A stretch of 64,000 nt of DNA from Paracrocinitomix mangrovi. GTDB taxonomy: Bacteria > Bacteroidota > Bacteroidia > Flavobacteriales_D > Crocinitomicaceae. This document shows, piece after piece, positions 9,701 through 41,707 of the stretch. The notes below the pieces were generated by a model. The model had not been told where the DNA came from, did no database searches, and was given only the letters and a program-made list of their open reading frames with translations. The translations under genes were made by a program, and so were the position numbers. The stretch lies in the NCBI RefSeq assembly GCF_019740355.2, contig NZ_CP091819.1, positions 1,550,001 to 1,614,000 of the forward strand, read 5' to 3'. Each line of letters opens with the position of its first letter. The stretch's first letter is position 1.

Positions 9701-9800
9701 AAAAGAATGGTATAAAATATTGAATGAAGAAATTCCTGCGTATAATGCGTTAATCAGATCAAAAGAGATTAATGTAATTGGAATTCCTAAAGAGAAGTAG
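6705..9800 (+). CDS. Large exported VPS10/BNR-repeat beta-propeller protein (glycosidase-like)
   Basis: 1031 residues with a signal peptide (LSFALIFFSTILSIAQ). Many sialidase-type Asp-box repeats are spread over residues 50-680: GGVWKTENGGNSWKNI, GGGKNW, WKTTDGGENW, YKSDDGAKTW, STNGGESW, HTKDYGKSW and SIDDGKKWEKF. They form beta propellers like those of sortilin/VPS10 proteins and secreted glycosidases. The final 200 residues are helical and charged. This architecture is common in Bacteroidota and is usually called glycosyl hydrolase, but no catalytic residues can be assigned here. There is no visible T9SS C-terminal signal, so periplasmic location or another export route is possible. It stands alone between convergent and divergent neighbours. 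Confidence 0.85.
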   Translation: MRYLSFALIFFSTILSIAQETSYSQISNALEFRCIGPFRGGRSAAVTGVPGKPMTFYMGSTGGGVWKTENGGNSWKNISDGYFGGSIGSIAVSKSNNSVLYVGGGEVTVRGNVSYGYGMYKSVNGGRSWTHIGLEKSRHIPRICIDPFNPEIVYAAVLGDLYKSTEERGVYKSVDGGKNWNKVLFSNKDAGAVDLVMDPEDPNILYASTWNVRRSPYDFSSGGEGSALWKTTDGGENWTEISKNEGFPEGTLGIIGISVSPVNPERVWSIVEAKEGGVYKSDDGAKTWTKTNDDRNLRQRAWYYSRIYADTKDEDKVYVMNVAYHVSSDGGKTFNQHYAPHGDHHDLWIAPEDPQRMIIGDDGGAQITFDGGNNWSTYHNQPTAQFYRVTTDNSFPYRVYGAQQDNSTIRIRHRVSGGQIGRGAWEATAGGESAHIAVDPENDDIVYGGSYGGFLTRKNHDNDQNRSINVWPDNPIGYGAEGMKYRFQWNFPVFFSPHDSKKLYAASNHLHVSTNGGESWKVISPDLTRNDTSKLGPSGGPITKDNTGVEYYCTIFAAVESPYEKDLLWTGSDDGLIQRSTDGGNGWVNVTPSDLPEWSMINSIEVDPFNKGGLYVAATSYKMGDYKPYLYHTKDYGKSWEKIVNGIEEEHFTRVIRADPKRQGLLYAGTESGLYISIDDGKKWEKFQQNLPIVPITDLHIKDNDLIVATQGRSFWILDDLHLIHQYLDKKPWDLHLYKPENAYALRGSSKTSNTAGTNHSGGVRVHYYLEKEVEKEDTIQLEFLDPENKVIRSFSNYPNSDEGKLEVKKGTNLFVWDMKYPKADDFEGLLLWWGTLEGPMAPPGTYGVQIKKNGKAYGFTQKFDIIRDPRSEGTDQDLRDKFKFLLGIRNKLDETHKVIKHMRLIKQQIAKMNELVGDDKSKEDVIQKGNDLENILTEIEGQLYQTKLKSNQDMLNYPIMLNNKLAHIASLAKMSNDRPTEQMYAVAKELTDQIDLLLKEWYKILNEEIPAYNALIRSKEINVIGIPKEK

Positions 9801-27736: not shown

Positions 27737-28771
27737 TTAAAAACTCCATAAGTTATGTTCCATATTGGAAATTTTCTCCTCAATTCTTTCAGATTCAAGC
27801 AATGCTTCTTGCCCTGCATTGTATTCATTAATGAATCTATCATAAATGTTAGACTCCTTAATTACATAGCTCTGGAACATTCTTTTTTGAAACAAATCAT
27901 CAAATGACATTCTTTGAGCATCATTGTGACGATTTTGAACAAAAAAGTTCTGAAGTTTATACTTTGCTTGTGGATAATACACCCAAAACAGCTCTTTCAT
28001 TCCTATAATATTTCCATCAGGATCTTTTTCATAAACACAAGGTGCAATTCCTATAATTCTCGGCTCAACAATTGATCTTTCCTTATCAAAAAACCAATCT
28101 TCCTTGATGTGATATTGGACGATATCTTCAGATTTATACCAAAAATATTCTCTGGGATAGTAAACCACTTCTCCTCTAGTATTCATTGAATCTATGGTTG
28201 GATCGAGCACACACTTTACAACAACTCTTGGCGAGAAAAAGTCTGTGTATCCAAAATACCCTTCTTTAATAAAGTCTCTGTAAACAGAATCTGTGTAAAA
28301 ATTCCCTTTGATAGATGAACCATATTGCTCTGCTGTAATTGGATATTTGAATTGATCTCCATCTTTCCAATCAACCCAATCCGGATTATAGGGAGAGTAC
28401 ATAGTGATGTCTCCTTTGAGAATAAAATGTAACAACACTGTCCAAAGGCTCCAACGCGTGCTATTTTTTTTCCAGTTCCATTCACCCACCATTTCATCTC
28501 CAGGTTGAATATCATCTAAAGGATAGTATAAAGTATGATTCATTTTTTGCCTTAAATCAATGGCTCTCCATACTCTTTTGCTCCACATCACATCCCTTTC
28601 ACTTACACTTTCATAAACCAGGGGTTTCTTAGTAGGAATATGTTCTTGAATATAAACTCCATCCAGAACTCCGGGTGCAGGAGTATTGATGGGTCCGTTA
28701 ATGTCATTGCTTTGTGCTAGGCTCAATTGACAAGATGTCGCCAAAAGAGCTGAAAAAATCAGTCTTCTCAT
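27737..28771 (-). CDS. gldN: GldN-family T9SS protein, second copy
   Basis: 344 residues, exactly the length of the main GldN at 38924. It has a signal peptide (MRRLIFSALLATSCQLSLAQ) and shares with that copy APGVLDGVY, EHIPTKK, RVWRAIDLR, DWVDWKDGD-like PDWVDWKDGDQFKYP, YYPREY, EDIVQY, KEDWFFD, RHNDAQRMSFDDLF and a C-terminal EHNLWSF. GldN is a periplasmic ring component that works with GldK at the outer membrane. It is downstream of gldM copy 2 with an 82-base gap containing an inverted repeat that covers its start codon. The duplication means a second, partial T9SS core or a cargo-specific variant. Confidence 0.93.
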   Translation of the reverse strand: MRRLIFSALLATSCQLSLAQSNDINGPINTPAPGVLDGVYIQEHIPTKKPLVYESVSERDVMWSKRVWRAIDLRQKMNHTLYYPLDDIQPGDEMVGEWNWKKNSTRWSLWTVLLHFILKGDITMYSPYNPDWVDWKDGDQFKYPITAEQYGSSIKGNFYTDSVYRDFIKEGYFGYTDFFSPRVVVKCVLDPTIDSMNTRGEVVYYPREYFWYKSEDIVQYHIKEDWFFDKERSIVEPRIIGIAPCVYEKDPDGNIIGMKELFWVYYPQAKYKLQNFFVQNRHNDAQRMSFDDLFQKRMFQSYVIKESNIYDRFINEYNAGQEALLESERIEEKISNMEHNLWSF

Positions 28772-28843
28772 AAAATTCGTTTTGGGTCTGCCATGAGGCA
28801 GTGTTCGTATTACTTTTCAAAACAAATAACGAGAAGACTGACT
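28757..28843 (-). promoter_or_regulatory. Long inverted repeat pairing the gldN copy 2 start with the end of the intergenic leader
   Basis: GAGAAGACTGACT at 28831-28843 and AATCAGTCTTCTC at 28757-28769 are complementary over 13 bases with one G-U pair. On the minus-strand transcript the second arm covers the ATG and codons 2-4 of gldN, and the first arm lies just after the gldM stop. A smaller hairpin (CTGCC at 28788-28792, GGCAG at 28797-28801) sits inside the loop. The structure could hide the gldN start until ribosomes finish gldM. Confidence 0.5.
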
Positions 28844-28853
28844 GTGGTTACTA

Positions 28854-30563
28854 TTAACGTTTTACTTTAAAGCTAAAAGACTCTCTTTTGGTTATTCCAG
28901 AAGGATCTCTATATGATACTTCTCCTGAAATGGTTTTTCCTCTACATTGATTTAATATGCTACCTGCATCTGAACTAATTCTTCCACCAGGTAAGATCTT
29001 TTTAGCTCCACCTACTCCTTCAACTCGTATCTCACCTCCAGTAATATCAAACTTAACACCGGTAAGGGTAATGGATTCGTCATAAGCCAATCGGACTTGT
29101 GAAAAATTCTTTCCTTGAACGTATTGAATATCTGAACCATTAATTGCACCATCAATGGTTAGTTCAGGTCCGGGTAACGGAACACATTTAAATTCAAATG
29201 AACCTAAACTGGTGGTTGTACCATCCTCATTTCTACCCACTACTCCAATGGTTGCTCTTCTGGTTCCTCTTTCTACCTTAGCAAGCATTTTTCCATTTTT
29301 GCGCTCAATTCTGCATCCGGATGTAGAAACTGAAATGTTTTCAGATGGAAAACCGGAACCGGTAGCTTCGATAACGTTGTCATATCCCCAATAAAGCACA
29401 CGCATTTCAGGCTGAGCAACAACTCCCATTGGTTGACCTACGGTATAATTAAATTCCCATGGCCTCCAGGTTCTGTCACCTCTTTCATTTACACCAATAA
29501 CACCCTTCACTCTATGTTCACCCGGAGATTGACCCGATAAACTTAAGCCTCCTTTTGTTTCTTTCCATCTTTCAGGAATTGTGTCTCCATCAATACCGTA
29601 TTTGATTACTGCAATGTCATTGGTATCATAGGCTGCGATCATCACTCTTAAACCCAATGAATCACCTTGATTAATATATGCCGTTTGTGCAATTGGCATT
29701 GGTTCAATTTTATTAAAATCAAACATTGGTGCATCAATCTTGGAAACAAAATAAGCAGCTGCCATTGACTCAGCATTTTTAACATCTAATTTTAAGGATG
29801 TAAACATTGCTGCAGCAGCAACTATTGGCGCGTGATCAAACATTACAGATACCCATGGCATCAACTCCTCCTCTCCATGCGAATACAATTTTTCAGGAAT
29901 GGTTAGTGTTTTATACATCTGAGATATTTTAGATGTATCCACTGGATTTGCTGTTTTAAAAGCATCTGCTAAACCACTTGAATTTTCTGGAGCTGTAAAG
30001 CTATAATCCTTACCTCCGTATTTATATGTTCCCATTGAAGAAGTGACTGCATTTCTGTATGCATGGATCCTATTGATTAAATCCAAACCTCTATCATTAG
30101 GTTCATTAGGATTACCTCCAACAAACATATTAGTGGGGATATCATAATTATCCATTGATTGGATATCATCTAATGGTCTTAATTGGGTAATGTTTCCATT
30201 TTCATCTCTGTTTTCAACCCAATCTTCACCTTCTGCGGTGTAGATCATGTCATTGCATTCTCCTAATAAAAATCCAATTAATTCAGCTGTTTGATCTCTC
30301 ATTTCATACGCCTTCTGCTCCCAGAACAACACTTCAGTTAGATCACCTTCAAGGGCTTGAACTGCAGCTTTTTTTTGTCCTATTTGACTATAAGCATCTT
30401 TGGCTTTGATATCAATGATTTCGGCACTGTTATCCAGTTTATTATTTAGTGTTACAAATGCCGCAACTATTTGCTTTGCTACATTTAATGCAAGCAGAGC
30501 AGTTAAGACGAGGTACATCATACCAATCATCTTTTGTCTAGGGGTTTCTTTTCCTCCTGCCAT
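28854..30563 (-). CDS. gldM: GldM-family T9SS motor protein, second copy
   Basis: 569 residues. The N terminus is nearly identical to the main copy (MAGGKETPRQKMIGMMYLVL) and contains the single inner-membrane helix with the conserved Glu-bearing cytoplasmic end. The large periplasmic part has four domains seen in the family (PWVSVMFDHAPIVAAAAMFT, INQGDSLGLRV, YTVGQPMGVVAQPEMRVL, GSGFPSENISV). GldM with GldL forms the proton-driven motor of T9SS and reaches GldK/GldN across the periplasm. No gldL copy accompanies this pair, so this GldM copy must use the main GldL or a distant one. The 250-base upstream region holds paired direct repeats (30712). Confidence 0.94.
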   Translation of the reverse strand: MAGGKETPRQKMIGMMYLVLTALLALNVAKQIVAAFVTLNNKLDNSAEIIDIKAKDAYSQIGQKKAAVQALEGDLTEVLFWEQKAYEMRDQTAELIGFLLGECNDMIYTAEGEDWVENRDENGNITQLRPLDDIQSMDNYDIPTNMFVGGNPNEPNDRGLDLINRIHAYRNAVTSSMGTYKYGGKDYSFTAPENSSGLADAFKTANPVDTSKISQMYKTLTIPEKLYSHGEEELMPWVSVMFDHAPIVAAAAMFTSLKLDVKNAESMAAAYFVSKIDAPMFDFNKIEPMPIAQTAYINQGDSLGLRVMIAAYDTNDIAVIKYGIDGDTIPERWKETKGGLSLSGQSPGEHRVKGVIGVNERGDRTWRPWEFNYTVGQPMGVVAQPEMRVLYWGYDNVIEATGSGFPSENISVSTSGCRIERKNGKMLAKVERGTRRATIGVVGRNEDGTTTSLGSFEFKCVPLPGPELTIDGAINGSDIQYVQGKNFSQVRLAYDESITLTGVKFDITGGEIRVEGVGGAKKILPGGRISSDAGSILNQCRGKTISGEVSYRDPSGITKRESFSFKVKR

Positions 30564-30711
30564 AATTTTAGGTTTTAATTGCTGCGACGGCCATCACAAT
30601 CTGGTTTCTAAACCTTAAATGACAGTTAAAAGAAAAAGTAACAAAGCTTTGTAATTGGTTGATTTAGAGTGTTTTGAGGAATAGTAATTATAAAAGAGAA
30701 TCTCCTTAAAG

Positions 30712-30744
30712 TTGAGGGAAAATGTCTAAATTTCAGGGAAAACG
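30712..30744. promoter_or_regulatory. Two direct repeats 20 bases apart upstream of gldM copy 2
   Basis: TTGAGGGAAAATG (30712-30724) and TTCAGGGAAAACG (30732-30744) are 11/13 identical and start exactly 20 bases apart, about two helical turns. A partial third copy (TTGAGGAAT) starts at 30674. They lie between the divergent gldM copy 2 and the lipoprotein gene at 30817. Protein binding is inference. Confidence 0.35.
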
Positions 30745-30816
30745 ATAATTTTAGGTGGTTATTTGCCTTAGAAGCAGGGGCTTTACATCAATAGATTTTT
30801 ATTCAATAATTCATTA

Positions 30817-31212
30817 ATGATGAAAAGACAAAAAATATACTTATTGTTTCTATTTACAATATTTGGTTGCGGTCCTGAGAAAAATTCTTCTTTTTTTTCA
30901 ACTGAACAAAATGACACAATTAAATTATTTTGGGAATTTAAGCATATAAAAACTATTGTTGACACTAAAACTGAGGAGTCAATATTTTTACCAATTGACA
31001 GTAGCTTGAACTCGGCTGAAATAGACTCATTAATACCTATTTTGGAATTTTATCGGCTTAACTATAAAATAACTATAGATAGCATAGTTTTAATTTCTAA
31101 AGGATATGATGGTATTTATAGTTATGAGGACATGTTAATATATGACACTGAGCTGCGCAATAAAATTCAATGTACATACTGCCCTAAATTATTAGAGTAT
31201 ACTAATAATTAA
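30817..31212 (+). CDS. Small lipoprotein of unknown function
   Basis: 131 residues starting at a double ATG. The lipobox TIFGC places the lipidated Cys near residue 18. The rest is short, with alternating hydrophobic and acidic residues and two late Cys (CTYC). I do not recognise the family. The stop is followed by the first palindrome of the island only 10 bases later. Divergent from gldM copy 2. Confidence 0.6.
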   Translation: MMKRQKIYLLFLFTIFGCGPEKNSSFFSTEQNDTIKLFWEFKHIKTIVDTKTEESIFLPIDSSLNSAEIDSLIPILEFYRLNYKITIDSIVLISKGYDGIYSYEDMLIYDTELRNKIQCTYCPKLLEYTNN

Positions 31213-31222
31213 TACGCCCCCC

Positions 31223-31247
31223 GCTCCGCAGTAGCTGTGCTGCTGCG
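31223..31247. repeat. REP-like palindrome R1
   Basis: GCTCCGCAGTAGC-TGT-GCTGCTGCG. The core CCGCAGTAGC pairs with GCTGCTGCG through one G-T pair. It lies 10 bases after the stop of the lipoprotein gene and opens RAYT copy 1. Confidence 0.8.
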
Positions 31248-31276
31248 TCTATTTCGTCAATCAAAAGCTGCTGCAC

Positions 31277-31865
31277 TTACTTTGTTTCAATCAACATCCC
31301 GGGTAAACAAAATACTTTCTCAAGAATCCCATTACCGTCCCAATAGTTTGAAGCTGATGAATACACCCAATGCTCAGCTTTGGTCACAAATCCTTCTTCA
31401 ACAGGGTTATTATGTATATAGTTAATCTTCTCCCAAACAAATTTTTCCGAATACAATTCGATTGCATGATTTCCCGATTTCCAAAATTTAATTTTCTCAT
31501 TTTGAGAATAATTTGTTCCGTTCCTCTTAAAAAAAAAGTTCCATCATCCATTCACGCCTCGATTCGGGTTCATTTTGTATTTGAAACAATATTTGCTTTA
31601 CAGTGTGTCTTTTAAAATCCCGAATTGTATTTTTCAACTCGAAAGGTTCATTGCAATTAACTATCAAATGTAAATGGTTTGTCATCAAACAATAGGCATA
31701 AACGTTCAATCCTTTGTGTTCAATACAATATCGTAGTGATTGAATGATTGCGTCTTTATGATTTTTTCTTGTAAATACATCTATCCATTCAACAATTGTT
31801 AAAGTAAGGTAATAAGAACCATTCTTTTTAATAGTATGTTTAACTCCCTGTTTGATAGAGTTAAT
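31277..31865 (-). pseudogene. REP-associated tyrosine transposase (RAYT), frameshifted copy
   Basis: Same reading as the intact copy at 32591, including the HUH motif (TNHLHL). A run of nine A at 31529-31537 replaces the five A at 32843-32847 of the other copy. This +4 change shifts the frame and stops the protein straight after WMMELFF. The C-terminal part with the YIHNNP-type motif is still present in another frame. The copy is otherwise near-identical, so the damage is recent, unless the run is a sequencing error. Like the other copy, it lacks ATG, GTG or TTG at the expected N terminus. Confidence 0.85.
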
Positions 31866-31888
31866 TTAAGTAAAATGTTTAATATTGA

Positions 31889-31914
31889 CCGCAGCAGCAT
31901 AGCTACTGCGGAGC
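31889..31914. repeat. REP-like palindrome R2
   Basis: CCGCAGCAGC-AT-AGCTACTGCGGAGC, the inverse orientation of R1. It closes RAYT copy 1 and lies 67 bases from the stop of the exported-protein gene at 31981. Confidence 0.8.
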
Positions 31915-31980
31915 TGGGTGAATAAATATTGGCTTTTTTGGTTAATAGTTCATTTACATTAATCTTGAACATCAAAATTA

Positions 31981-32496
31981 CTAGTTGAAGGAGATAGAAT
32001 TCATGATTATTTCAAAAATATTTTCATAATTGCTATCATCACAATCTTCCCAAAATTGCCTAATTTGAATTACTTTATTTTGGTATTTGAAGAGAATTAA
32101 ATTTCCAAGAACGGGAACATCAAGCCACATTTTTTTATATCGATAACGTTTTGCATTCAATCCAGAGATTTCTATATCTTCTATAAATAAAATCTTCACT
32201 TCTGAATTAATATTCATTTTTATTTGAGATTCAAAATACTCATTGGCATAATTTGAGATTGTTTTCTTTTTTTTATAAAGTTTAATGAACATATTCGCTG
32301 GAAAATTATTTGGACAAATAGTTTTATTTGGAATAGCTGAAACCCCGCCATTGCTGTATGGGATCACTTTCCATTTTCTAGGAATTGCAATTTTATAAAA
32401 GCCTGATGAATCATTGAAAACATTAAATGACGAGTCAATTTGACAAAATGTCACTAAGCAAATCACTTGAAATAGTAATAATAATTTAAGCTTCAT
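31981..32496 (-). CDS. Exported protein of unknown function (island cassette)
   Basis: 171 residues with a signal peptide (KLLLLFQVICLVTFCQ). The mature part begins with a KIAIPRKWKVIPYSNGG pattern like that of PsbP/DcrB-type exported folds (a beta sheet with W at the start) and continues with KRYRYKKMWLDVPVLGN. The fold suggestion is weak. The gene is alone between palindromes R2 and R3, which face each other, as in the unit 34101-34538. A short piece of a relative of this gene survives at 36628. Confidence 0.6.
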   Translation of the reverse strand: MKLKLLLLFQVICLVTFCQIDSSFNVFNDSSGFYKIAIPRKWKVIPYSNGGVSAIPNKTICPNNFPANMFIKLYKKKKTISNYANEYFESQIKMNINSEVKILFIEDIEISGLNAKRYRYKKMWLDVPVLGNLILFKYQNKVIQIRQFWEDCDDSNYENIFEIIMNSISFN

Positions 32497-32536
32497 AATT
32501 AAAGGTTACTCTCTTATTAATTCAATGATCCTCCCC

Positions 32537-32561
32537 ACTCCGCAGTAGCTATGCTGCTGCG
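32537..32561. repeat. REP-like palindrome R3
   Basis: ACTCCGCAGTAGC-TAT-GCTGCTGCG, same orientation as R1. It opens RAYT copy 2, about 40 bases upstream of the gene at 31981-32496. Confidence 0.8.
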
Positions 32562-32590
32562 TCTATTTCGTCAATCAAAAGCTGCTGCGC

Positions 32591-33175
32591 TTACTTTGTT
32601 TCAATCAACATCCCGGGTAAACAAAATACTTTCTCAAGAATCCCATTACCATCCCAATAGTTTGAAGCTGATGAATATACCCAATGCTCAGCTTTGGTCA
32701 CAAATCCTTCTTCAACAGGATTATTATGTATATAGTTAATCTTCTCCCAAACAAATTTTTCCGAATACAATTCGATTGCATGATTTCCCGATTTCCAAAA
32801 TTTAATTTTCTCATTTTGAGAATAATTTGTTCCGTTCCTCTTAAAAAGTTCCATCATCCATTCACGTCTCGATTCGGGTTCATTTTGTATTTGAAACAAT
32901 ATTTGCTTTACTGTGTGTCTTTTAAAATCCCGAATAGTATTCTTCAACTCGAAAGGTTCATTGCAATTGACAACCAAATGTAAATGGTTTGTCATCAAAC
33001 AATAGGCATAAACGTTCAATCCTTTGTGTTCAATACAATATCGTAGTGATTGAATGATTGCGTCTTTATGATTTTTTCTTGTAAATACATCTATCCATTC
33101 AACAATTGTTAAAGTAAGGTAATAAGAGCCATTCTTTTTAATAGTATGTTTAACTCCCTGCTTGATAGAGTTAAT
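32591..33175 (-). CDS. REP-associated tyrosine transposase (RAYT), Y1/IS200-like
   Basis: The frame is open for 194 codons, about the usual RAYT length. It reads YYLTLTIVEWIDVFTR near the start, then the HUH motif TNHLHLVV, then the family C terminus YIHNNPVEEGFV and WVYSSASNYW, with the candidate catalytic Tyr in that region. Such proteins are single-strand DNA nucleases that recognise REP hairpins. After the upstream stop (33178-33176) there is no ATG or GTG before the conserved N-terminal part; the first TTG is at 33019, already inside the domain. Initiation at ATT/ATC, or loss of function, must be considered. Same sequence context in both copies. Confidence 0.8.
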   Translation of the reverse strand: MNSIKQGVKHTIKKNGSYYLTLTIVEWIDVFTRKNHKDAIIQSLRYCIEHKGLNVYAYCLMTNHLHLVVNCNEPFELKNTIRDFKRHTVKQILFQIQNEPESRREWMMELFKRNGTNYSQNEKIKFWKSGNHAIELYSEKFVWEKINYIHNNPVEEGFVTKAEHWVYSSASNYWDGNGILEKVFCLPGMLIETK

Positions 33176-33198
33176 TTAAGTAAAATGTTTAATATTGA

Positions 33199-33220
33199 CC
33201 GCAGCAGCACAGGAGCTGGT
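33199..33220. repeat. REP-like palindrome R4 (truncated)
   Basis: CCGCAGCAGCAC followed directly by AGGAGCTGG. Compared with R2 about ten bases of the second arm (AGCTACTGC and neighbours) are missing, so the hairpin cannot form. It lies 14 bases from the stop of the gene at 33234. Confidence 0.7.
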
Positions 33221-33233
33221 GAACATTGCTTCC

Positions 33234-33791
33234 TTACCATTCAGGACCATGATGAGCATGTCCCCAATGCAACCTTTTTTTTTCTCCAAATATATTAGAA
33301 AATCCACAAGTTGAAAAAACGGGAATTCTTAGCCCCATATTATGACCACTATTATAAAAACTGGCATCCTTGTTACTAGAAAAAGAGTATGAATATGTTA
33401 TTTTGGCAAAACGTAAATCAAGAAAAACATTAGGTTTGATGTAATACATTATTTCAGAAATCTGGTAACCATAAGAAATTCCCGTAATGAATCCAAAAGA
33501 TAAAAAACCAACATACAAATTTTGTCTTGTCTCAATGATCATTGAGTTTTTAAAAGGCGATACTCCAAGATTGACAGATTGCTCATAAAAGCCCATGCCA
33601 TCAATAATGTCAACAGCTAGTATTCCTTCTAATCCTAAAAATCCAGTTCTAAGCTGCTCAAAACTGAAATCTAACTCAAAATCTTTTTCATACTCTACAT
33701 CTCCTGTGACGCAACGATTGGAATCAATCATGTTTTGAGTATAACCCGTAAATGAAATTAAAAGCAACAATAATAATTTTAGTTTTTTCAT
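33234..33791 (-). CDS. Exported protein, possible small beta-barrel, unknown function
   Basis: 185 residues with a signal peptide (KLKLLLLLLISFTGYTQ). The mature part alternates aromatic and glycine residues (FLSFGFITGISYGYQI, ITYSYSFSSN) as in outer-membrane barrels, and ends in a His-rich tail (HWGHAHHGPEW). I do not recognise the family. It is the second unit of the island, next to the truncated palindrome R4. Confidence 0.6.
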   Translation of the reverse strand: MKKLKLLLLLLISFTGYTQNMIDSNRCVTGDVEYEKDFELDFSFEQLRTGFLGLEGILAVDIIDGMGFYEQSVNLGVSPFKNSMIIETRQNLYVGFLSFGFITGISYGYQISEIMYYIKPNVFLDLRFAKITYSYSFSSNKDASFYNSGHNMGLRIPVFSTCGFSNIFGEKKRLHWGHAHHGPEW

Positions 33792-33850
33792 AACAAATTT
33801 TAATGTTTCTTACTGCCTATCAAACATTTCAGAACCATTATTAATTTCAT

Positions 33851-33943
33851 TTAAAAGCTTTTATCTTCTTGTTGCAAATAATCATCATATGCTCCATTTA
33901 TTTCATCAACGATACGAAGCTGGGTTAATTTAGGTAAAATGTA
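33851..33943 (-). pseudogene. Decayed gene tail
   Basis: An open frame of 30 codons ends in a normal TAA and reads like a protein C terminus (LRIVDEINGAYDDYLQQEDK). It begins inside sequence shared with the RAYT end and has no start codon. It is probably the remainder of a gene removed by a rearrangement. The family is not recognised. Confidence 0.4.
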
Positions 33944-34028
33944 TTAATCATGGTTTTTTCAAAGCATCACAATTGTAGACCAATACTTGATTAAAGTGGG
34001 CTAATATAGAACAAGTGCAGAGATGTTA

Positions 34029-34060
34029 CCGCAGCAGCACAGCTACTGCGGAGCGGGTGG
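34029..34060. repeat. REP-like palindrome R5
   Basis: CCGCAGCAGC-ACA-GCTACTGCGG followed by AGCGGGTGG. Same orientation as R2. It lies 40 bases past the stop of the gene at 34101. Confidence 0.8.
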
Positions 34061-34100
34061 TCGTAAAGCGGTAAAAAGCTAAAATCTAAGACTATTTTTA

Positions 34101-34538
34101 TTAATAATAGAGTCCGCTTTTTTTCTTTTTAATTATTAAATCGAGACCATTTCTAGAAATGTGAAACTCAATAGTCATTTTATTCTTTAGGTATGCAGGA
34201 TAAAAAGAAAAGTCTTTTTTGCCTATATAAATTTTAAACCAATAATTTCTTTTCCTGTTTAATTCGTATGTCATATTAAAGGCAATACCAGTTGAGTATT
34301 CAGTTGTTAACTCAGAATTATAAAGTAGAGTATCAATATCTCTGTTATTTCCTTGGTTATGTTGTATTAGTAATGAACAAATTGTATTCTTTAATTTTCC
34401 TGAGATGACAATGTTTACTTCTTTTGAAAATGATTCAAATGGAATAATTATTATTATAAGAACTGGAATTAGTTTAATTGCCAGATTTAATCGTTTCTTT
34501 TTCATTTGTTCCATCTTCATCTTCATTTCGATTTTCAT
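34101..34538 (-). CDS. Exported protein of unknown function (island cassette)
   Basis: 145 residues. The N terminus is strongly basic (KIEMKMKMEQMKKKRLN) before a hydrophobic signal (LAIKLIPVLIIIIIPFESFS), so the real start may be one of the later Met codons. The mature part is short, with lysine-rich beta segments. Family unknown. The gene is flanked by palindromes R5 and R6 with their GGAGCGGGTG arms facing inward, the same arrangement as gene 31981-32496. Confidence 0.55.
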   Translation of the reverse strand: MKIEMKMKMEQMKKKRLNLAIKLIPVLIIIIIPFESFSKEVNIVISGKLKNTICSLLIQHNQGNNRDIDTLLYNSELTTEYSTGIAFNMTYELNRKRNYWFKIYIGKKDFSFYPAYLKNKMTIEFHISRNGLDLIIKKKKSGLYY

Positions 34539-34559
34539 GTTGAGTTTTAAATATTCACC

Positions 34560-34590
34560 CGCTCCGCAGCAGCACAGCTACTACGGAGCG
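34560..34590. repeat. REP-like palindrome R6
   Basis: CGCTCCGCAGCAGC-ACA-GCTACTACGGAGCG, the most complete palindrome of the set: 12 of 14 positions pair. It separates the genes at 34101 and 34616. Confidence 0.8.
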
Positions 34591-34615
34591 AGGAGTAAAA
34601 TTCCTAATATTTCGA

Positions 34616-35068
34616 TTAAAAGTTTTTCAAATGCGTTTTCAAAGATTCAAATAAATCATCAATTTTTAACTTTCGCTCAACCGTACAATTATTATATACA
34701 ATTTCTATATTATGATCTTTAAGTTTTCTCCAATAAAGATCAGTCCCTGATATGATACCTTTTTGATCTGTTATCCCTTCTTCAACAGATTTATCAAGTT
34801 CGATATACTTATTGTTGTCAGAACAACAAGAAAATAAAGCATTTGCAAAAATAAAGTTGATTCTAATGTAAGAAGTATCGTCTAAAAACGAAATCAAAAA
34901 AAGCTCTCCTTCATGATACGTCAAAGTGTCTACAAAAAAAGTATCAATTTCTAATTCAAAAGTTAAATCGTAAAATTCTTTATCAAATTTCCATGACTTG
35001 AGGTTTTCTTGGGAGAATGCACCAAAATTTAAAGTTCCTACTATTAACAATACCAACATATTTTTCAT
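34616..35068 (-). CDS. Exported protein of unknown function
   Basis: 150 residues with a signal peptide (KNMLVLLIVGTLNFGAFSQ). The mature sequence is rich in Phe, Tyr and Asp (FDKEFYDLTFELEIDTFF) with a CCSDN segment. Family unknown. The unit is bounded by R6 on its downstream side and by the second hairpin family upstream (35126). Confidence 0.55.
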   Translation of the reverse strand: MKNMLVLLIVGTLNFGAFSQENLKSWKFDKEFYDLTFELEIDTFFVDTLTYHEGELFLISFLDDTSYIRINFIFANALFSCCSDNNKYIELDKSVEEGITDQKGIISGTDLYWRKLKDHNIEIVYNNCTVERKLKIDDLFESLKTHLKNF

Positions 35069-35125
35069 GTTCTTTTTATCTTTAAAGTGATTAGTATTCC
35101 ACGTGGTTTAAGAATTAAATACTCA

Positions 35126-35148
35126 CTCGTCAAAGATGAGCGCGAGCG
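35126..35148. repeat. Second hairpin family, copy H1
   Basis: CTCGTC-AAA-GATGAG followed by CGCGAGCG. The six-base stem includes one G-T pair. It is followed by ATCTAAAAACAATTTA, a stretch also seen near copy H2. Confidence 0.6.
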
Positions 35149-35187
35149 ATCTAAAAACAATTTAAATAAAAATTGAAAAAATAAATA

Positions 35188-35784
35188 ATGAAGAATAGTT
35201 ATTTTGTTGTTTTAATAGCATTAGTTATTTGTAATTCAATCTCTTATAGCCAAGAAGTATTAAAGATTGAAACAATCAGTTCAAGACATGTGACTTTTTC
35301 ATTTGTTAATCAAAAGAAAGAGGATATATATTATTTTAACCCTGATGTTTATTTTTATGGGTTTTATAGAACAACTAAACAAAAATCCAAAATAGTCCAT
35401 ATTTTTAACGACAGAGCTATTCTCTTTAGTGATACGTTACAATTTTATTTACATCATTTTGACTTTTGGGATTCGATACCTGGCAGTAATCCAAATTTTG
35501 AGAATAGAAAAATGGATGGAATGTGGAAATTTAATAAATTATCCCCAGGTCAAAAATCAAATACCTGGAAAATAAAGTTTAATTGTAAAATTCCATATAA
35601 AACAATGATTTTAATATTTAGTTATAAAGAAAAAAACATTGTACACTGGATCAAATTGAGTATTGACAAGAGAATTCTATCAAAAAGTACCATCCAAAAA
35701 GAAATTAAACCTTTTTATTATAGAGATCACTTGAATGATAGGAATTTAGATTATTATGGCTCAGAAGGATTTGGATGTGAATAA
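35188..35784 (+). CDS. Exported protein of unknown function
   Basis: 198 residues with a signal peptide (VVLIALVICNSISYSQ). The mature part is aromatic and basic, with a Trp-containing middle (KMDGMWKFNKLSPGQK) reminiscent of small beta-sandwich proteins. Family unknown. It is the first of four rightward genes in the island and follows hairpin H1 by about 40 bases. Confidence 0.6.
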   Translation: MKNSYFVVLIALVICNSISYSQEVLKIETISSRHVTFSFVNQKKEDIYYFNPDVYFYGFYRTTKQKSKIVHIFNDRAILFSDTLQFYLHHFDFWDSIPGSNPNFENRKMDGMWKFNKLSPGQKSNTWKIKFNCKIPYKTMILIFSYKEKNIVHWIKLSIDKRILSKSTIQKEIKPFYYRDHLNDRNLDYYGSEGFGCE

Positions 35785-35864
35785 TCTGAGAAAATCTCAC
35801 AAACTTTATTCATACTTCTTTGCTCGACATTAGCAGCATTACAGTTCATGATAATTAAATAATT

Positions 35865-36401
35865 ATGAAAATAAAATATATTCCGCTTTATCTTACATTA
35901 ACAGTCCTTTTTTGCTGTGCTAGACCTAGTGAGTATTGTCCTCACAAGTTTGATTTTGGATTTCATAATTTTGACTCCTCTTATTTTGAGAAAGATTTTA
36001 TTGGTAAACATGAAAATGATACATTAATCATTTATAGCATGCATAATCCAATCATAAACACGTATGATATCGATAGCACCAATTTCTTTGGAGGCAGAAG
36101 CTGTCAAGTTGGTTTTAGATATGATTATTACTTAATCACTCCTAACAATAAGGAAGAATCTTTTAGTATTGAGTTTTGGGGAAATAATGATAATGATTCA
36201 ACATATTTTTTTCAATTTTTTATTGCAGGTTGTTATGATTTGAAAAAAGAAGTTTACAATCTTAATGAAGCAAATGTCACGTTTAACATTCCTAATGAAA
36301 ATAGGGGTCAATTATATATCAACAAAATCGAATTTGAAGAAGGAAAACTAAAAACTATATATTCAAGTGATTCAAAAATTTGGGAATTTCAAGTAGATTA
36401 A
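35865..36401 (+). CDS. Lipoprotein of unknown function
   Basis: 178 residues with a lipobox (VLFCCARPS), lipidated Cys near residue 18-19. The rest is acidic and aromatic with several Asn/Asp-rich turns (GNNDNDSTYFF) and two late Cys. Family unknown. Very AT-rich, as are its neighbours. Confidence 0.6.
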   Translation: MKIKYIPLYLTLTVLFCCARPSEYCPHKFDFGFHNFDSSYFEKDFIGKHENDTLIIYSMHNPIINTYDIDSTNFFGGRSCQVGFRYDYYLITPNNKEESFSIEFWGNNDNDSTYFFQFFIAGCYDLKKEVYNLNEANVTFNIPNENRGQLYINKIEFEEGKLKTIYSSDSKIWEFQVD

Positions 36402-36403
36402 AG

Positions 36404-36600
36404 TTGAATATAGATGCAATAGAGCCTGATGATGCCACTTTAAAAAGGTAAAGTCTATTTTCAAAATGTCTGATGAAGATAATGGGTATTTCTTTTGGCT
36501 TATTGATGCGTATATTGCGAAAACTTAAATGTAGGAATAGATTTAGATGAAGAACAAAGGTGTTTAAATTCTAATTGCTTTGCTGGCTGTAAATTAATTA
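36404..36600 (+). pseudogene. Frameshifted remnant of a small gene
   Basis: Three consecutive open pieces in three different frames read like one protein: LNIDAIEPDDATLKR (36404-36448), KSIFKMSDEDNGYFFWLIDA (from 36451) and VGIDLDEEQRCLNSNCFAGC (from 36531). The amino-acid composition is like that of a small cytoplasmic immunity-type protein, but I do not recognise it. No start codon or promoter is left. Confidence 0.45.
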
Positions 36601-36604
36601 CATA

Positions 36605-36625
36605 CTTGTCACAGACGAGCGCAAG
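36605..36625. repeat. Second hairpin family, copy H2
   Basis: CTTGTC-ACA-GACGAG followed by CGCAAG. It matches H1 (35126) in stem positions, loop length and following bases, then is interrupted by about 53 bases of foreign-looking sequence before the shared ATCTAAAAA stretch. Confidence 0.6.
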
Positions 36626-36741
36626 AGTTTTTTATAACGATAACGTTTTGCATTTAATCCAGAAATGTTTTGGAAGGCTATCTAAAAATAATTTAGAATA
36701 AAAAACTATAAAGGTATTCCGTATTTCTATTTTTAAAAATC

Positions 36742-37455
36742 ATGAAAAATCACATATTCGGTTTAATTTATTTAATACTAGTTCTTTTATTTAATTCATG
36801 CTCTGAAAGTAAGATGAAATCAAAGCAGACTGAAAATAATATAGTTGATGAGTTATACGAAAACCAGAATTTAAGAGTTCAAATAAAATTTCTTAAAGAA
36901 AAGACTGCTATTGAAGTAAAAAAAGTTAATGAGCAGATTTTTGAAAATCAAAAATTAACTAATGAAAATAGAGTTACAAGATTAGGAGATTCCTTGATAT
37001 TTGATTTTAGTAATAAGAGAAATCAAATATATATTAATGTGAATCGTACAGAACCGAAAATATATTGGGAAGATTTCATTTTTAAAGGTCAGATAGGAGA
37101 TTCAAAATATTGGGAGATTCTTTACGGTCAGTATAATTGCTGCTCTTATTCGATTCTTTTGAACAGTGAGACAGGAGACACTTTAAATGCCATTGGATCT
37201 ACTTTTAAATCACCATCAGGGAAATACTTACTGTCTTTAAGTTATAGTCCGAATGACAGTTTAATTTTTAATGGGTTTGAAATTTTCAAAAAATATTCAC
37301 CAAACTATAAACGATTAGGTAGGTTTAGAACAACTAATTGGAGTCCATATGCATTTTCATGGAAAAATGATAATGAGTTAATACTTGAAACAAAAAACTC
37401 AAAAAATATTAAGGGTGAATTTCGTTATGCTAAGATGATAATTCAGGAGAAATAA
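36742..37455 (+). CDS. Lipoprotein of unknown function
   Basis: 237 residues with a lipobox (LLFNSCSES), lipidated Cys near residue 20. The following region is helical and charged, then a beta-rich domain with CCSYSILLNSETGDTLNAIG and several Trp. It resembles small propeller-like periplasmic domains, but the family is not assigned. Transcribed with the island genes, 340 bases after the last. Confidence 0.6.
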   Translation: MKNHIFGLIYLILVLLFNSCSESKMKSKQTENNIVDELYENQNLRVQIKFLKEKTAIEVKKVNEQIFENQKLTNENRVTRLGDSLIFDFSNKRNQIYINVNRTEPKIYWEDFIFKGQIGDSKYWEILYGQYNCCSYSILLNSETGDTLNAIGSTFKSPSGKYLLSLSYSPNDSLIFNGFEIFKKYSPNYKRLGRFRTTNWSPYAFSWKNDNELILETKNSKNIKGEFRYAKMIIQEK

Positions 37456-37515
37456 CATTTTTTAGTAGCAGTGCAATTTCTATAAGTAATGGGTATCACC
37501 TTAATAAAATATAAT

Positions 37516-38034
37516 ATGAAACATTCTTTAATAATCTACTTCGTGCTAATATCTTTTTATTCATTTAATCAGAAATTTGAACTAGTGTATGAAGACCAAT
37601 TTCATACGATAGACACTGTAATGAAAGGAGGAAAAATAGATCATATAAATTATTATGATTATACAGAATTTGATAGTTCGTTTTTATCAAAAGTAGGACA
37701 CAAATATTTTTATGAAAATGGTGTAATTAAAAATGAATGGTGGGTATCAAAAAAATTAAACTATAAGTATAGTGCATTTAGGGATACCAATGGGAATTTT
37801 TATCGTGAATCTCTCAAAATGGGTATTTATCTTATTGAGAGGGAATATTACTTGAATACAAGTAATATTCGTCAAATTATTAATTATAAGATGAAAATAA
37901 ATTATAAAAAGCCAGAAAAATCAAGAATTATAAAACATGGATTTAGTTATTTTTATAATAGGGATGGTTCCATAGACAAAATTGAACTTTATAAAAATGG
38001 TCATTTAGTGAAAATTAAAGGACTTAAATATTAA
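37516..38034 (+). CDS. Exported MORN/YwqK-like protein
   Basis: 172 residues from the ATG at 37516, which gives a signal peptide (LIIYFVLISFYSFNQ); an ATG 27 bases earlier adds an untypical segment. The mature part has repeats of the form YFYENGVIKNEWWVSKK and YFYNRDGSIDKIELYKNG. These look like MORN/YwqK-type antitoxin-like repeats that are frequent in Bacteroidota. Target unknown. Confidence 0.6.
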   Translation: MKHSLIIYFVLISFYSFNQKFELVYEDQFHTIDTVMKGGKIDHINYYDYTEFDSSFLSKVGHKYFYENGVIKNEWWVSKKLNYKYSAFRDTNGNFYRESLKMGIYLIEREYYLNTSNIRQIINYKMKINYKKPEKSRIIKHGFSYFYNRDGSIDKIELYKNGHLVKIKGLKY

Positions 38035-38145
38035 ACACTGAAGGGTAAGTAAATTTATAAATGGCGCTATTTCCTATTTGTTGCGGGCTATAAATCATTC
38101 CGGTTGTAAATGGCCATTGTAAAATCATTGTTCTGCAGTTGAATA

Positions 38146-38176
38146 GCGGCTTCAATAGAGCTACTACGGAGAGGGG
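38146..38176. repeat. REP-like palindrome R7 (degenerate)
   Basis: The second arm AGCTACTACGGAG followed by AGGGG matches R6. The first arm is worn down (GCGGCTTCAAT). It lies at the stop of the gene at 38164, so the palindromes mark gene boundaries up to the right end of the island. Confidence 0.5.
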
Positions 38177-38718
38177 TACAATAACATTACATCTGCTAAT
38201 TCTTTGTTATCACTTTTTTTCTCCTTTGAATGAGGAACAGGAACCCATTTGCGCCTACCCACAGTTCTTCCATCACCACCGATAGAATAAATCTTCCCAG
38301 AATAAAAGCATACAGGAGTATAAGAATCCCTAGTGACAGATTCCACAACTAAAGAACAATCACATAACTTATCATAATAAAGGCTGTATGGAGTTTTTAT
38401 TATCTCTTCATCCCAGTAATAGTTTATTTCTTGACCAGCTGCTGTTAAATCATATGATAAAATCATATGATTTATTTTGTTTATGAAATAGGCTGATCCA
38501 TCACTAGTATCTGATTTGAGCTCTTGTGGTTTAAAAAATAACTGATCAACAATCTCAGAAAATAAAAGACTGTCTTTAATACTTTTTATATAATCGTTCA
38601 AAATTGGCTTACAATTAACTTCGCTTTGTTGTTCCGAAACATTTTGATCTTTCTCAGAACTGTTGTTACAAGATAGTAGAAAAATCCCAATCATTGTTAT
38701 AAACGCTTTTTTTAACAT
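38164..38718 (-). CDS. Lipoprotein of unknown function
   Basis: 184 residues with a lipobox (GIFLLSCNN), lipidated Cys near residue 17. The linker is Ser/Gln/Glu-rich and the domain carries Cys pairs (CDCSL, CFYSG) plus a VGRRKW stretch. Family unknown. It is the last gene of the island, beside the main gldN. Confidence 0.6.
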   Translation of the reverse strand: MLKKAFITMIGIFLLSCNNSSEKDQNVSEQQSEVNCKPILNDYIKSIKDSLLFSEIVDQLFFKPQELKSDTSDGSAYFINKINHMILSYDLTAAGQEINYYWDEEIIKTPYSLYYDKLCDCSLVVESVTRDSYTPVCFYSGKIYSIGGDGRTVGRRKWVPVPHSKEKKSDNKELADVMLLYPSP

Positions 38719-38879
38719 ACTCTAATTTCATGTTATTCAACAACTTGCCCCCTGCTAGCGGATCAATAGATTTCCAATCCATTGAAGAAGTAGCGGTAGT
38801 CAGTTCCATTTTTTTCCTATTTCTCAATATTCCTAATAAGGAACAGTTCTAATTTACAAAACACCTAGGCATAAAAAAA

Positions 38880-38900
38880 GCCTCCCGAAATTCGAGAGGC
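38880..38900 (-). terminator. Terminator of the gldKLMN operon
   Basis: A stem GCCTC-n-CGAA / TTCG-n-GAGGC with one internal mismatch has a single-base loop. On the minus strand it is followed by seven T. It lies 24 bases after the gldN stop. Confidence 0.85.
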
Positions 38901-38923
38901 TTTCAATATTATCAAGTTGAACA

Positions 38924-39958
38924 TTAGAAACTCCACAAGTCGTGTTCGAACTTAAAGATTTTATCTTTTATTCTTTCAGACTCTAACAAAGCTTCAACAC
39001 CAGCTCTATAGTTTTGTAACTCTCTATCATAAAGATTTGACTCTTTAATGATGTAGCTGGTAAACATTCTCTTCCAGAACAAGTCATCAAATGACATTCT
39101 TTGAGAGTCGTTGTGTCTACTTTGTACATAGAAGTTTTGGAAGATGTATCTGCACTCTGGGAAATATAACCAGAACAGTTCTTTCAATCCAACAATGTTT
39201 CCATCAGCATCTTTCTCATAAGTTACCGGGCAAATTCCGATAATTCTTACATCTAATACTGATCTTTCATTGTCAAAGAACCAATCTTCTTTTACTCTGT
39301 ACTGAACGATATCCTCAGAATTTAACCATGTGTACTCTCTTGGGTAGTAAACTACCTCTCCCAAGTCATTGATCGAATCCTCACCAGGATAAAGAATCGA
39401 TTGTACGGCTACTAATCCTGAAGAATAATCTGTTGCTCCAAAGTATCCTTCTTTTAAGAAATCTCTAAACACTGTATCTGTATAGAAAGTTCCTCCAGGT
39501 TGTCCTAAACCGAACTTCTCAGATGTCAGTGGATATTTAAAAAGGTCACCATCTTTCCAATCTACCCATTCAGGATCCATTGGCGAATAAGCAGTTAAAT
39601 CACCAGAAAGTACGTGATACTTGATGATTGTCCAAAGACTCCATCTAGTTGGATTTCTTTTCCAATCATTATCTCTGTACCATCCTGGCTTTGGTGCCAT
39701 ATCATCTAATGGATAGTGAAGTGGGTGATTAAATTTCTCTCTCAAATCAATAGCTCTCCATACTCTTTTACTCCAAGCGACATCAGCCTCTCTTACAAAC
39801 TCGTAAGGAACTACTTTTTTAGTAGGAATATGTTCTCTAACATACACTCCATCCAAAACACCCGGCGCAGGATTAGCAATCGGTCCACGGATATCTCCCT
39901 GGGCATTTGCTATCATAGCTGCACACAACAACACGAAAGAAAAAATCAACCTTTTCAT
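38924..39958 (-). CDS. gldN: T9SS ring protein GldN (main copy)
   Basis: 344 residues with a signal peptide (LIFSFVLLCAAMIANAQ) and the family features APGVLDGVYVREH, KRVWRAIDLREKF, PEWVDWKDGDLFKYP, EDIVQYRVKEDWFFD and RHNDSQRMSFDDLF. GldN and GldK form the periplasmic ring at the inner face of the outer membrane. It is the last gene of the operon, 21 bases after gldM. The copy at 27737 shares all these features. Confidence 0.95.
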   Translation of the reverse strand: MKRLIFSFVLLCAAMIANAQGDIRGPIANPAPGVLDGVYVREHIPTKKVVPYEFVREADVAWSKRVWRAIDLREKFNHPLHYPLDDMAPKPGWYRDNDWKRNPTRWSLWTIIKYHVLSGDLTAYSPMDPEWVDWKDGDLFKYPLTSEKFGLGQPGGTFYTDTVFRDFLKEGYFGATDYSSGLVAVQSILYPGEDSINDLGEVVYYPREYTWLNSEDIVQYRVKEDWFFDNERSVLDVRIIGICPVTYEKDADGNIVGLKELFWLYFPECRYIFQNFYVQSRHNDSQRMSFDDLFWKRMFTSYIIKESNLYDRELQNYRAGVEALLESERIKDKIFKFEHDLWSF

Positions 39959-39979
39959 AATTCAACTTTTGTTTAAATA

Positions 39980-41707
39980 CTATTTTACTTTAAACGCAAG
40001 GGCTCCAATACGTGTGATCCCATCAGGACCTTTGTATTTTACCTCCATTGCAACGTTTTTACCTTTTGACTGGTTCATCATTGATTTAGCTTTACCATCT
40101 AAGGCTCCACCTCTTTCAATATTACCAGCACCAGGAACACCTGCAACGATAACAGTACCTCCCATTACGGTGTAGTTTACACCTTGTAAAGGAGATGAAG
40201 GGTCTAACATTACTGTAACTCTACCTACGTTCTTAGCTTCAGTATAAGATGCATTTCCTCCAGATTCAATACTACCGAACTTAATTAAAGCTGGTGGCAT
40301 AGGCTTACATTTGAAATCAAATTTACCTAAGCTTACTGAACCTCCATCTTCTTTCTTACCACTTACACTAATACTAGCTGTACGAGTTCCTCTTGATACT
40401 TTGGCGATATATGTACCACCACCAGCAGAAGATAATGAACATCCGCTACCAGAAAGTGAAACTTTATCTGCAGGGAAACCTGAAGCGGTTCCTTCTACTT
40501 TATTGTCATATCCCCAGTATAATACTCTCATCTCAGGTTGTGCTACAACACCCATTGGCTGTCCAACTGTATAGTTATACTCAAAGTTTTTCCAAGATAA
40601 TTCACCTTTTTCTTTAACTCCGATTTGACCTTTGATTTTGTGCGGACCTGGTTTATCTCCAGGAAGCCCAATATCTCCAGTAACAGTCTTCCACGCATCC
40701 GAGTTTGCAGTGTCAGCGTCCATACCATAACGTATCTTCGAAACTTCGTTACTATCATATGCGGCAATTTTTACACTTAATGCCAAAGAATCACCCTGAT
40801 TAATGTAACTAGAACGAGCAAACGCTAATGGTTCGATCTTATTAAAATTAAATGTTGGAGCGTCTACTTTACTCAACATGAAATCAGATGCCATTGCTTC
40901 GGCATTTTTGATGTCAAGTTTTAATGAAGTAAACATTGCAGCAGCTGCAACAATTGGCGCATGGTCAAAAGTAACAGATGGCCAAGGCATTTCACCTTCA
41001 CCGTGCATTTCCAATTTCTCCGGCAACGTTAAAGCTGAGTAAACTTGTCTAATTTTTGATGTATCCTTTGGATTACACCCTTGTAAAGACGCCTCTAAAC
41101 TTCCTGCAGCAGGATCAAATTTCCATTCGTTTTTACCTGAAGTATAGGTTCCCATTAATCCACATACAAGATCTCTATATTCATGAATTTTCTTCGGAAT
41201 ATTTAATCCTTTTTCTACTGGATTATGAGGATCTCCCCCCACAAATAAATTGGTTGGAACGTCATAGTTATCAAAGGAAGAAATTTCTTCTAATCCTTTT
41301 AAATTGGTAACAACTTTATGACTTTGACCGTCAGCTGTTGTAACGTCGATTTCTTTTTCAACCCAATCGATTCCATCAGCTTCAACAATCATTTCATTTG
41401 CTTCTCTCAACAAATAGTCGATAACTATATAAGTTTGCGCTTTCAATTCGTTGGCTGCACCCTCCCATTGGTCGAGTAATTTCATATCCCCTTTCGTTGC
41501 AACAAGTGCTGCACGTTTAGCATCAAAACCGTAGTATGTACCTTCGATTTTGTTGTTTATAATTTCAGCACTTGCATCTAACTTATTATTAAGCGTAATG
41601 AAGGCTGCAATCACTTGTTTAGAAACGTTAAGGGCAAGTAGAGCGGTAAGTACTAAGTACATCATACCGATCATCTTCTGTCTTGGGGTTTCTTTTCCTC
41701 CTGCCAT
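39980..41707 (-). CDS. gldM: T9SS motor protein GldM (main copy)
   Basis: 575 residues. One inner-membrane helix near residues 12-32 (MIGMMYLVLTALLALN) precedes four periplasmic domains (PWPSVTFDHAPIVAAAAMFT, INQGDSLALSV, YTVGQPMGVVAQPEMRVL, ASGFPADKVSLSGSG). GldM dimers rotate with GldL and carry energy across the periplasm. The gene is 71 bases downstream of gldL and 21 bases upstream of gldN, a compact operon. The N-terminal 25 residues are almost the same as those of the second copy. Confidence 0.95.
   Translation of the reverse strand: MAGGKETPRQKMIGMMYLVLTALLALNVSKQVIAAFITLNNKLDASAEIINNKIEGTYYGFDAKRAALVATKGDMKLLDQWEGAANELKAQTYIVIDYLLREANEMIVEADGIDWVEKEIDVTTADGQSHKVVTNLKGLEEISSFDNYDVPTNLFVGGDPHNPVEKGLNIPKKIHEYRDLVCGLMGTYTSGKNEWKFDPAAGSLEASLQGCNPKDTSKIRQVYSALTLPEKLEMHGEGEMPWPSVTFDHAPIVAAAAMFTSLKLDIKNAEAMASDFMLSKVDAPTFNFNKIEPLAFARSSYINQGDSLALSVKIAAYDSNEVSKIRYGMDADTANSDAWKTVTGDIGLPGDKPGPHKIKGQIGVKEKGELSWKNFEYNYTVGQPMGVVAQPEMRVLYWGYDNKVEGTASGFPADKVSLSGSGCSLSSAGGGTYIAKVSRGTRTASISVSGKKEDGGSVSLGKFDFKCKPMPPALIKFGSIESGGNASYTEAKNVGRVTVMLDPSSPLQGVNYTVMGGTVIVAGVPGAGNIERGGALDGKAKSMMNQSKGKNVAMEVKYKGPDGITRIGALAFKVK

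Follow-up and report, generated by a model that had tools for sequence, protein, structure and literature searches.

A REP/RAYT locus with GCT-footed hairpins in an accessory island of Paracrocinitomix mangrovi

When single genes alternate with palindromes in bacterial DNA, are the palindromes the ends of exchangeable gene cassettes or the traces of a transposase encoded nearby? This question is raised by the window analyzed here, a stretch of 64,000 nucleotides (bases 1550001-1614000 of the complete 4.37-Mb genome of Paracrocinitomix mangrovi, a member of Bacteroidota), in which an island between gldM2 and gldN1 carries seven GC-rich palindromes, two genes for REP-associated tyrosine transposases (RAYTs; REP, repetitive extragenic palindrome) and a number of single orphan genes. 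The initial annotation of the island viewed two of these genes as likely exchangeable cassettes and considered that such use of a REP/RAYT system would be new for Bacteroidota. In the explanation that we favor, with a probability of roughly 0.8, the island contains a RAYT locus close to the previously described subclass 2.6, the hairpins are local by-products of the transposase, the REP-RAYT-REP unit was duplicated once, and the orphan genes are bystanders. Except for its unusual duplicate, this is an ordinary, well-defined REP/RAYT locus in an accessory island; its new details, a one-sided 5'-GCT foot on the palindromes and a duplicate unit bounded by REPs, are modest.

The palindromes and the duplicated RAYT unit

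The principal features of the island, including the two REP-RAYT-REP units (REPtrons), are as follows (window coordinates).

30564-38923: island of 8360 bases between gldM2 (28854-30563) and gldN1 (38924-39958), 29.6% G+C
31216-31250, minus strand: R1, REP bounding REPtron 1 on the left, with its GCT foot facing outward (left), 52.1 bits
31280-31856, minus strand: RAYT copy 1, frameshifted by an insertion of 4 bases, ATC at the conserved start
31887-31921, plus strand: R2, REP bounding REPtron 1 on the right, with its foot facing outward (right), 49.6 bits
32530-32564, minus strand: R3, REP at the left end of REPtron 2, ACT instead of GCT, 51.3 bits
32594-33166, minus strand: RAYT copy 2, 191 codons open, HUH motif and catalytic Tyr kept, ATC at the conserved start
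33199-33222, plus strand: R4, damaged right REP of REPtron 2, assigned from the sequence and its alignment to R2
34027-34061, plus strand: R5, solitary REP or the end of an eroded third unit, 51.6 bits
34562-34596, plus strand: R6, solitary REP with GCT on both sides, 48.7 bits on the plus strand and 19.1 on the minus strand
38145-38179, plus strand: R7, solitary and degenerate REP that overlaps the 3' end of g38164, 37.1 bits

Both RAYT units named in the initial annotation are present, although copy 1 is broken, and their assignment to the REP/RAYT systems holds. The product of copy 2 passes the NCBI RAYT model (NF047646; 90.6 bits, cut-off 80), and its AlphaFold2 model (predicted local distance difference test score of 90) has as its best Foldseek match in the PDB the structure 4er8, a RAYT bound to a REP hairpin (E value of 7e-8, TMt of 0.64). 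With IS200/IS605 elements it shares the HUH-Y1 core and hairpin ends, but it falls below the cut-off of the respective model (NF033573; 22.4 bits, cut-off 55) and the hairpins at its two ends are inverted. When the open window copy is aligned with 18 relatives (43-74% identity, including the second RAYT of the same genome), residues N60, H61, H63, W124 and the Y145-I-H-x-N-P motif are invariant in all 19 sequences. Close RAYTs are carried by Crocinitomix catalasitica and uncultured Flavobacteriales, among others. The conserved start codon is ATG in seven of ten relatives, GTG in one, ATC in one (L139) and another codon in the remaining one; since both window copies have ATC there, neither may be made in quantity. 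Both copies are thus possibly inactive, having no ATG, GTG or TTG at the conserved start and, in one case, a frameshift as well. The second full-length RAYT of this genome (L010:1501-2016, corresponding to G000:C1:137842-138357) is 43% identical and has different palindromes on its two sides; elsewhere, three partial RAYT copies stand in tandem, ~404 to 415 bases apart, in L156:1-1223.

All seven palindromes were found at the places where they had been reported. Five of them (R1, R2, R3, R5 and R6) are good and resemble one another closely as versions of a single imperfect palindrome. R7 is degenerate; R4, which retains about half of the stem in its alignment to R2, is absent from the covariance-model matches. 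The canonical GT[AG]G is not present directly 5' of the stem; GCT is found there in the good window copies, with ACT in R3. The palindromes are inverted around both RAYT genes, R1 (minus) and R2 (plus) around the broken copy and R3 (minus) and the damaged R4 around the open one. When up to 3 mismatches are allowed, a 25-base pattern matches the 4.37-Mb genome at 6 sites, of which 5 are in this island; the reversed control matches nowhere. The genome-wide covariance-model search that had been proposed with the initial annotation (model built from R1, R2, R3, R5, R6, R7 and the copy at 3.7998 Mb; 150 of 233 candidates scored) detected at least nine sites at E values below 0.01, of which six belong to the island, two are found at 3.80 Mb and one at 1.32 Mb; training sequences match such a model by construction, and the sites at 1322445 and 3801573 are the ones outside the training set. 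The number of copies outside the island (three) is thus low. Six of nine sites in a comparably short span (within 7 kb) were obtained in none of 200,000 random placements. The clustering of the palindromes at the island is not due to chance, and the uniform spread over the genome that would have spoken against the earlier proposal is not what is seen.

The two REPtrons are alike from the foot of the left REP into the right REP (98% and 97% identity in two 300-base blocks), and their flanks are unrelated. By this comparison, one duplication of the entire REP-RAYT-REP unit has taken place here, and the duplicate is bounded by REPs. A likeness limited to the REP-bounded stretch fits movement of the whole unit, with recombination as the alternative, and the duplicate may have moved as a unit rather than by recombination. 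In genome G028, two RAYT copies 861 bases apart both have the same flanking hairpins, which looks like a plain tandem duplication.

The GCT foot and the affinities of the RAYT

In the 49 distinct palindromes of the form SCGCWG-N11-CWGCGS collected here, GCT stands directly outside the stem on one side only in 41, on neither side in 8 and on both sides in none; when the loci fetched by the palindrome itself are left aside, it is found on one side in 31 of 38 and on neither in 7. The odd pair on the GCT strand is mostly T-T or T-G, and this strand folds more stably as DNA than its complement (-8.1 versus -6.9 kcal/mol for R1 and -10.2 versus -8.7 kcal/mol for R5). The strand that is recognized in known REPs is the GTAG strand (PMC8266576). 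By analogy, the GCT strand would be the one recognized here.

Inverted palindromes were seen on both sides of the RAYT in 12 of 13 loci picked by eye (own locus included) and, by a strict automatic rule, in 16 of the 37 distinct RAYT copies that could be examined; the feet point outward in 7 of 9 REP pairs that span a RAYT. The set of 59 genomes searched, own included, contains three more from the same genus. In 17 of these genomes the motif GCTSCGCWG-N11-CWGCG occurs, at 115 sites in total (reversed control, 2 sites). When fragments are included, 10 of the 13 genomes with at least two motif sites have a RAYT match that reaches 49% identity, versus 4 of the 46 others (p = 4e-6). These 13 genomes have 2 to 23 strict sites each, often clustered, unlike classical gammaproteobacterial REPs, which usually exceed 100 copies (PMC2817692, PMC8266576). 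One inverted palindrome pair, 96 bases apart and resembling a REPIN, occurs twice in genome G049 (C14:86984-87104 and C20:58370-58490).

The same data bear on the view that the palindromes are only transcription ends or mRNA stabilizers and are kept for that purpose. Their positions at or between gene ends agree with it, but a one-sided foot, an outward orientation around RAYTs (the 7 of 9 pairs just mentioned) and a tie to RAYT presence are not needed for terminators, so that we regard this view as extremely unlikely; such a function may still be a secondary role of the palindromes. In the preferred explanation, an HUH-Y1 single-strand DNA nuclease would recognize hairpins with a 5'-GCT foot as its guide and most likely cleave and join them in single-stranded DNA; through this cleavage and joining, extra REPs would settle near the source gene. 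The REP-RAYT-REP unit would have been duplicated once, and the orphan genes would be bystanders in an accessory island that accepts insertions in its gaps.

As for its affinities, the window locus appears close to RAYT subclass 2.6, the group 5 of Bertels, which is described as found mostly in Bacteroidetes and as having genes that lie between atypical hairpins (PMC6006769). A REP/RAYT system is therefore not new to this phylum, and the suggestion of novelty for Bacteroidota in the initial annotation does not hold. The published traits of this subclass include NH[LIV]H and YIH[QN]NP motifs, a median HUH-Y spacing of 82, a WQ consensus, a 21-residue insert between helix C and strand 4 and no GT[AG]G foot (PMC6006769). 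The window RAYT has NHLH, YIHNNP and an HUH-Tyr spacing of 84; it also shares with that subclass an SS pair after the core, hairpins other than GTAG on its two sides, further copies elsewhere in the genome and the phylum. Whereas the available text on subclass 2.6 speaks of weaker, atypical structures and names no foot, the closer relatives considered here have a strong stem and a 5'-GCT foot. With the classical gammaproteobacterial RAYT/REP systems (PMC2817692, PMC8266576), this locus has in common a RAYT between two inverted REPs, a fold like that of 4er8 and REPs that can gather near the RAYT; the foot, GCT rather than GT[AG]G, is different.

Several observations weigh against the preferred explanation. 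The strict rule finds no palindrome pair in 21 of the 37 RAYT copies, the window's own included (R4 is damaged), and three more copies, outside the 37, run off their locus. Of the 16 strict pairs, 13 include a REP with GCT, and in 10 of these both REPs have it. Loci L150, L152 and L153, whose RAYTs are 45-51% identical to that of the window, have other feet, so the GCT foot marks closer relatives and not every relative. Three genomes (G001, G002 and G056) have at least two motif sites without a RAYT of at least 49% identity. Finally, the W motif of the window RAYT is WK instead of the WQ of subclass 2.6 (WQ, WK, WR or WM among the 19 aligned sequences), and for this reason the RAYT is called close to that subclass rather than a proven member.

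The island and the cassette question

The description of the island as very AT-rich was accurate, its G+C content (29.6%) being lower than that of the window to either side (35.9% and 35.4%). The gldM and gldN genes are duplicated in tandem (27737-30563 and 38924-41707). Among the four relatives in which the junction was compared (G001, G003, G013 and G022), the gap between gldN1 and the next gldM, as measured by tblastn, is ~217 bases in G003 and ~129 in G022 versus 8360 here, G013 has the arrangement gldM-gldN-gldN-gldM without the island, and the second gldM is not present at the junction in G001; the order of the cluster is thus M-N-M in G003 and G022, M-N-N-M in G013 and M-N in G001. Because these junctions are short or free of the island, the 8.4-kb segment, judged from the sequences compared, is an insertion between gldN1 and gldM2 relative to G003 and G022. 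An island with the same gene order in all relatives, which would have argued against cassettes, is therefore not what is seen, since it is absent at the junction in G003 and G022; yet the clustering of REPs near a RAYT, as seen here, has also been reported for known systems, namely in three marine gammaproteobacteria and one betaproteobacterium (PMC2817692).

The other features of the island include orphan genes, sequence remnants and a second palindrome family (REP2).

31981-32496, minus strand: g31981, 171-amino-acid orphan with a signal-like start, between the two REPtrons, no Pfam family over the cut-off
33234-33791, minus strand: g33234, secreted-type protein, no family over the cut-off
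33918-33950: remnant near R5 resembling the 5' end of the RAYT unit (33924-33942 is 95% identical over 19 bases to 31860-31878; the rest by eye)
34101-34538, minus strand: g34101, orphan protein between R5 and R6
34616-35068, minus strand: g34616, secreted-type protein, no family over the cut-off
35122-35142, minus strand: decayed REP2 copy, 3 mismatches
36601-36621, minus strand: decayed REP2 copy, 3 mismatches
36621-36666: fragment of 46 bases resembling part of g31981 (87% identity to 32124-32169), directly beside a decayed REP2 copy

None of the scanned island proteins other than RAYT reached a curated family cut-off in Pfam or NCBIfam (g30817 was scanned with NCBIfam only), and the weak matches below the cut-off were set aside. 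An Rfam scan of 30000-39500 gave nothing at the gathering score. The two decayed REP2 copies are a feature absent from the initial annotation. Two of three copies of this second family, CGCTCGTTTGTAACGAGTGCG, flank an open reading frame (ORF; 9485-9763) in L057:9439-10577 (3.517 Mb) that resembles by eye an internally deleted RAYT, gave no match in the RAYT search and directly follows a 1861-codon ORF (toxin-like by eye) and a 362-codon ORF.

The proposal of exchangeable one-gene cassettes rested on palindromes that face inward around g31981 and g34101. They do so around g31981, because this gene sits between REPtron 1 and REPtron 2, whose outer REPs are R2 and R3; around g34101 this was not confirmed, as the covariance model places R5, R6 and R7 all on the plus strand. 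The inward reading of the latter is understandable given the foot on both sides of R6, the orientation of which, for the same reason, rests on the asymmetry of the stem. In the cassette view, recombination would use the REPs as its ends, and a gene flanked by REPs would be moved either by the RAYT or by REP-REP recombination. If IS608 is a guide, the arrangement expected to work is one with direct REPs, as in R5-g34101-R6, not one with inward-facing REPs. Genes and REPs do alternate in the island, R5 and R6 are direct by the covariance model, and 13 of 21 neighboring REP pairs (300-4000 bases apart with no RAYT between them, picked by eye from the motif sites with R3, R4, R6 and R7 added) are direct as well. 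However, with 6 pairs inward and 2 outward there is no clear bias, and the idea of a preferred REP-pair orientation around genes was dropped.

The RAYT is in the same place in the related loci L142, L143 and L146, whose surroundings are 90% and 77-81% identical. L142 has a 1.25-kb stretch with a 385-codon ORF that L143 lacks, and the rule applied finds no hairpin in it. This is evidence against cassettes in these relatives, not proof for the window island; in L146, the RAYT frame is interrupted and no downstream palindrome is listed. A search of 399 genomes for g31981 returned, besides itself, one poor, stop-containing match, and a pattern-based scan of genome contigs found no relative of g34101, so an exchange of these two genes could not be seen. 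Integron gene cassettes are likewise single genes separated by imperfect palindromes; unlike in integrons, no integrase was seen among the island ORFs and no exchange was seen (attC sites were not searched for). Exchangeable cassettes are thus not supported, no gene-plus-palindrome unit having been seen to come or go among the compared relatives (no close strains), and we consider them very unlikely. The orphan genes are better accounted for, as part of the favored explanation, as probable bystanders in such an island.

Rhs neighborhoods and implications

Another explanation would make this a toxin-immunity island, with its orphan secreted or lipoprotein-like genes being orphan immunity genes and the REPs gathering there for that reason. 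Some REP and RAYT loci are indeed close to Rhs cores. Among the Rhs matches listed for the 59 genomes (down to E values of ~5e-4), 9 of 45 RAYT loci have an Rhs core within 5 kb, with 0.33 expected by a rough estimate that ignores contig ends, and so have 5 of 29 REP loci (0.15 expected). REPs occur in L058 beside the only Rhs core match of the P. mangrovi genome among those listed, in L090 between the gene that follows one Rhs tip and the next Rhs tip, and in L089, where three REPs stand among small ORFs ~4 to 7 kb from an Rhs tip. The first of these regions (L058:8276-11608, 3.80 Mb) contains an Rhs core fragment, small lipoprotein-like ORFs and two palindrome sites of the first family, with one palindrome of the second family ~20 bases from one of them.

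However, rve integrases behave alike (6 of 59 loci within 5 kb of a listed Rhs core; p = 0.26 against RAYT by Fisher's test, 58 used), and because this control is similar, proximity to Rhs is ascribed to mobile DNA around Rhs loci in general, and a special RAYT-Rhs link was rejected. In the literature search, RAYT and Rhs did not occur together as whole words in any paper. Ten island proteins had no convincing match outside their own genome in 136 loci, including 40 regions around Rhs cores (leaving aside the gld, ABC and RAYT queries and the matches of >95% identity, which come from the same genome), and no Rhs-type gene was seen in the island, where no dedicated toxin search was made. A toxin-immunity island is therefore an unlikely explanation, and a RAYT locus with locally accumulated hairpins among bystander genes is the one that we retain.

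The near-identical, REP-bounded duplicate bears on the question of whether RAYT units move as a whole. Conceivably, though we find it quite doubtful, group 5-like RAYTs of Bacteroidota could recognize GCT-footed hairpins and, in contrast to the domesticated RAYTs described so far, still move larger pieces, namely their own entire REP-RAYT-REP unit (copies 1 and 2 here) and sometimes a gene between direct REPs (R5-g34101-R6); if this were true, they would help build orphan-gene islands. For part of a little-studied RAYT subclass, GCT-SCGCWG-N11-CWGCG provides a searchable hairpin signature and a probable recognized strand, so that the REPs of this part of the subclass could be counted in Bacteroidota without manual inspection.

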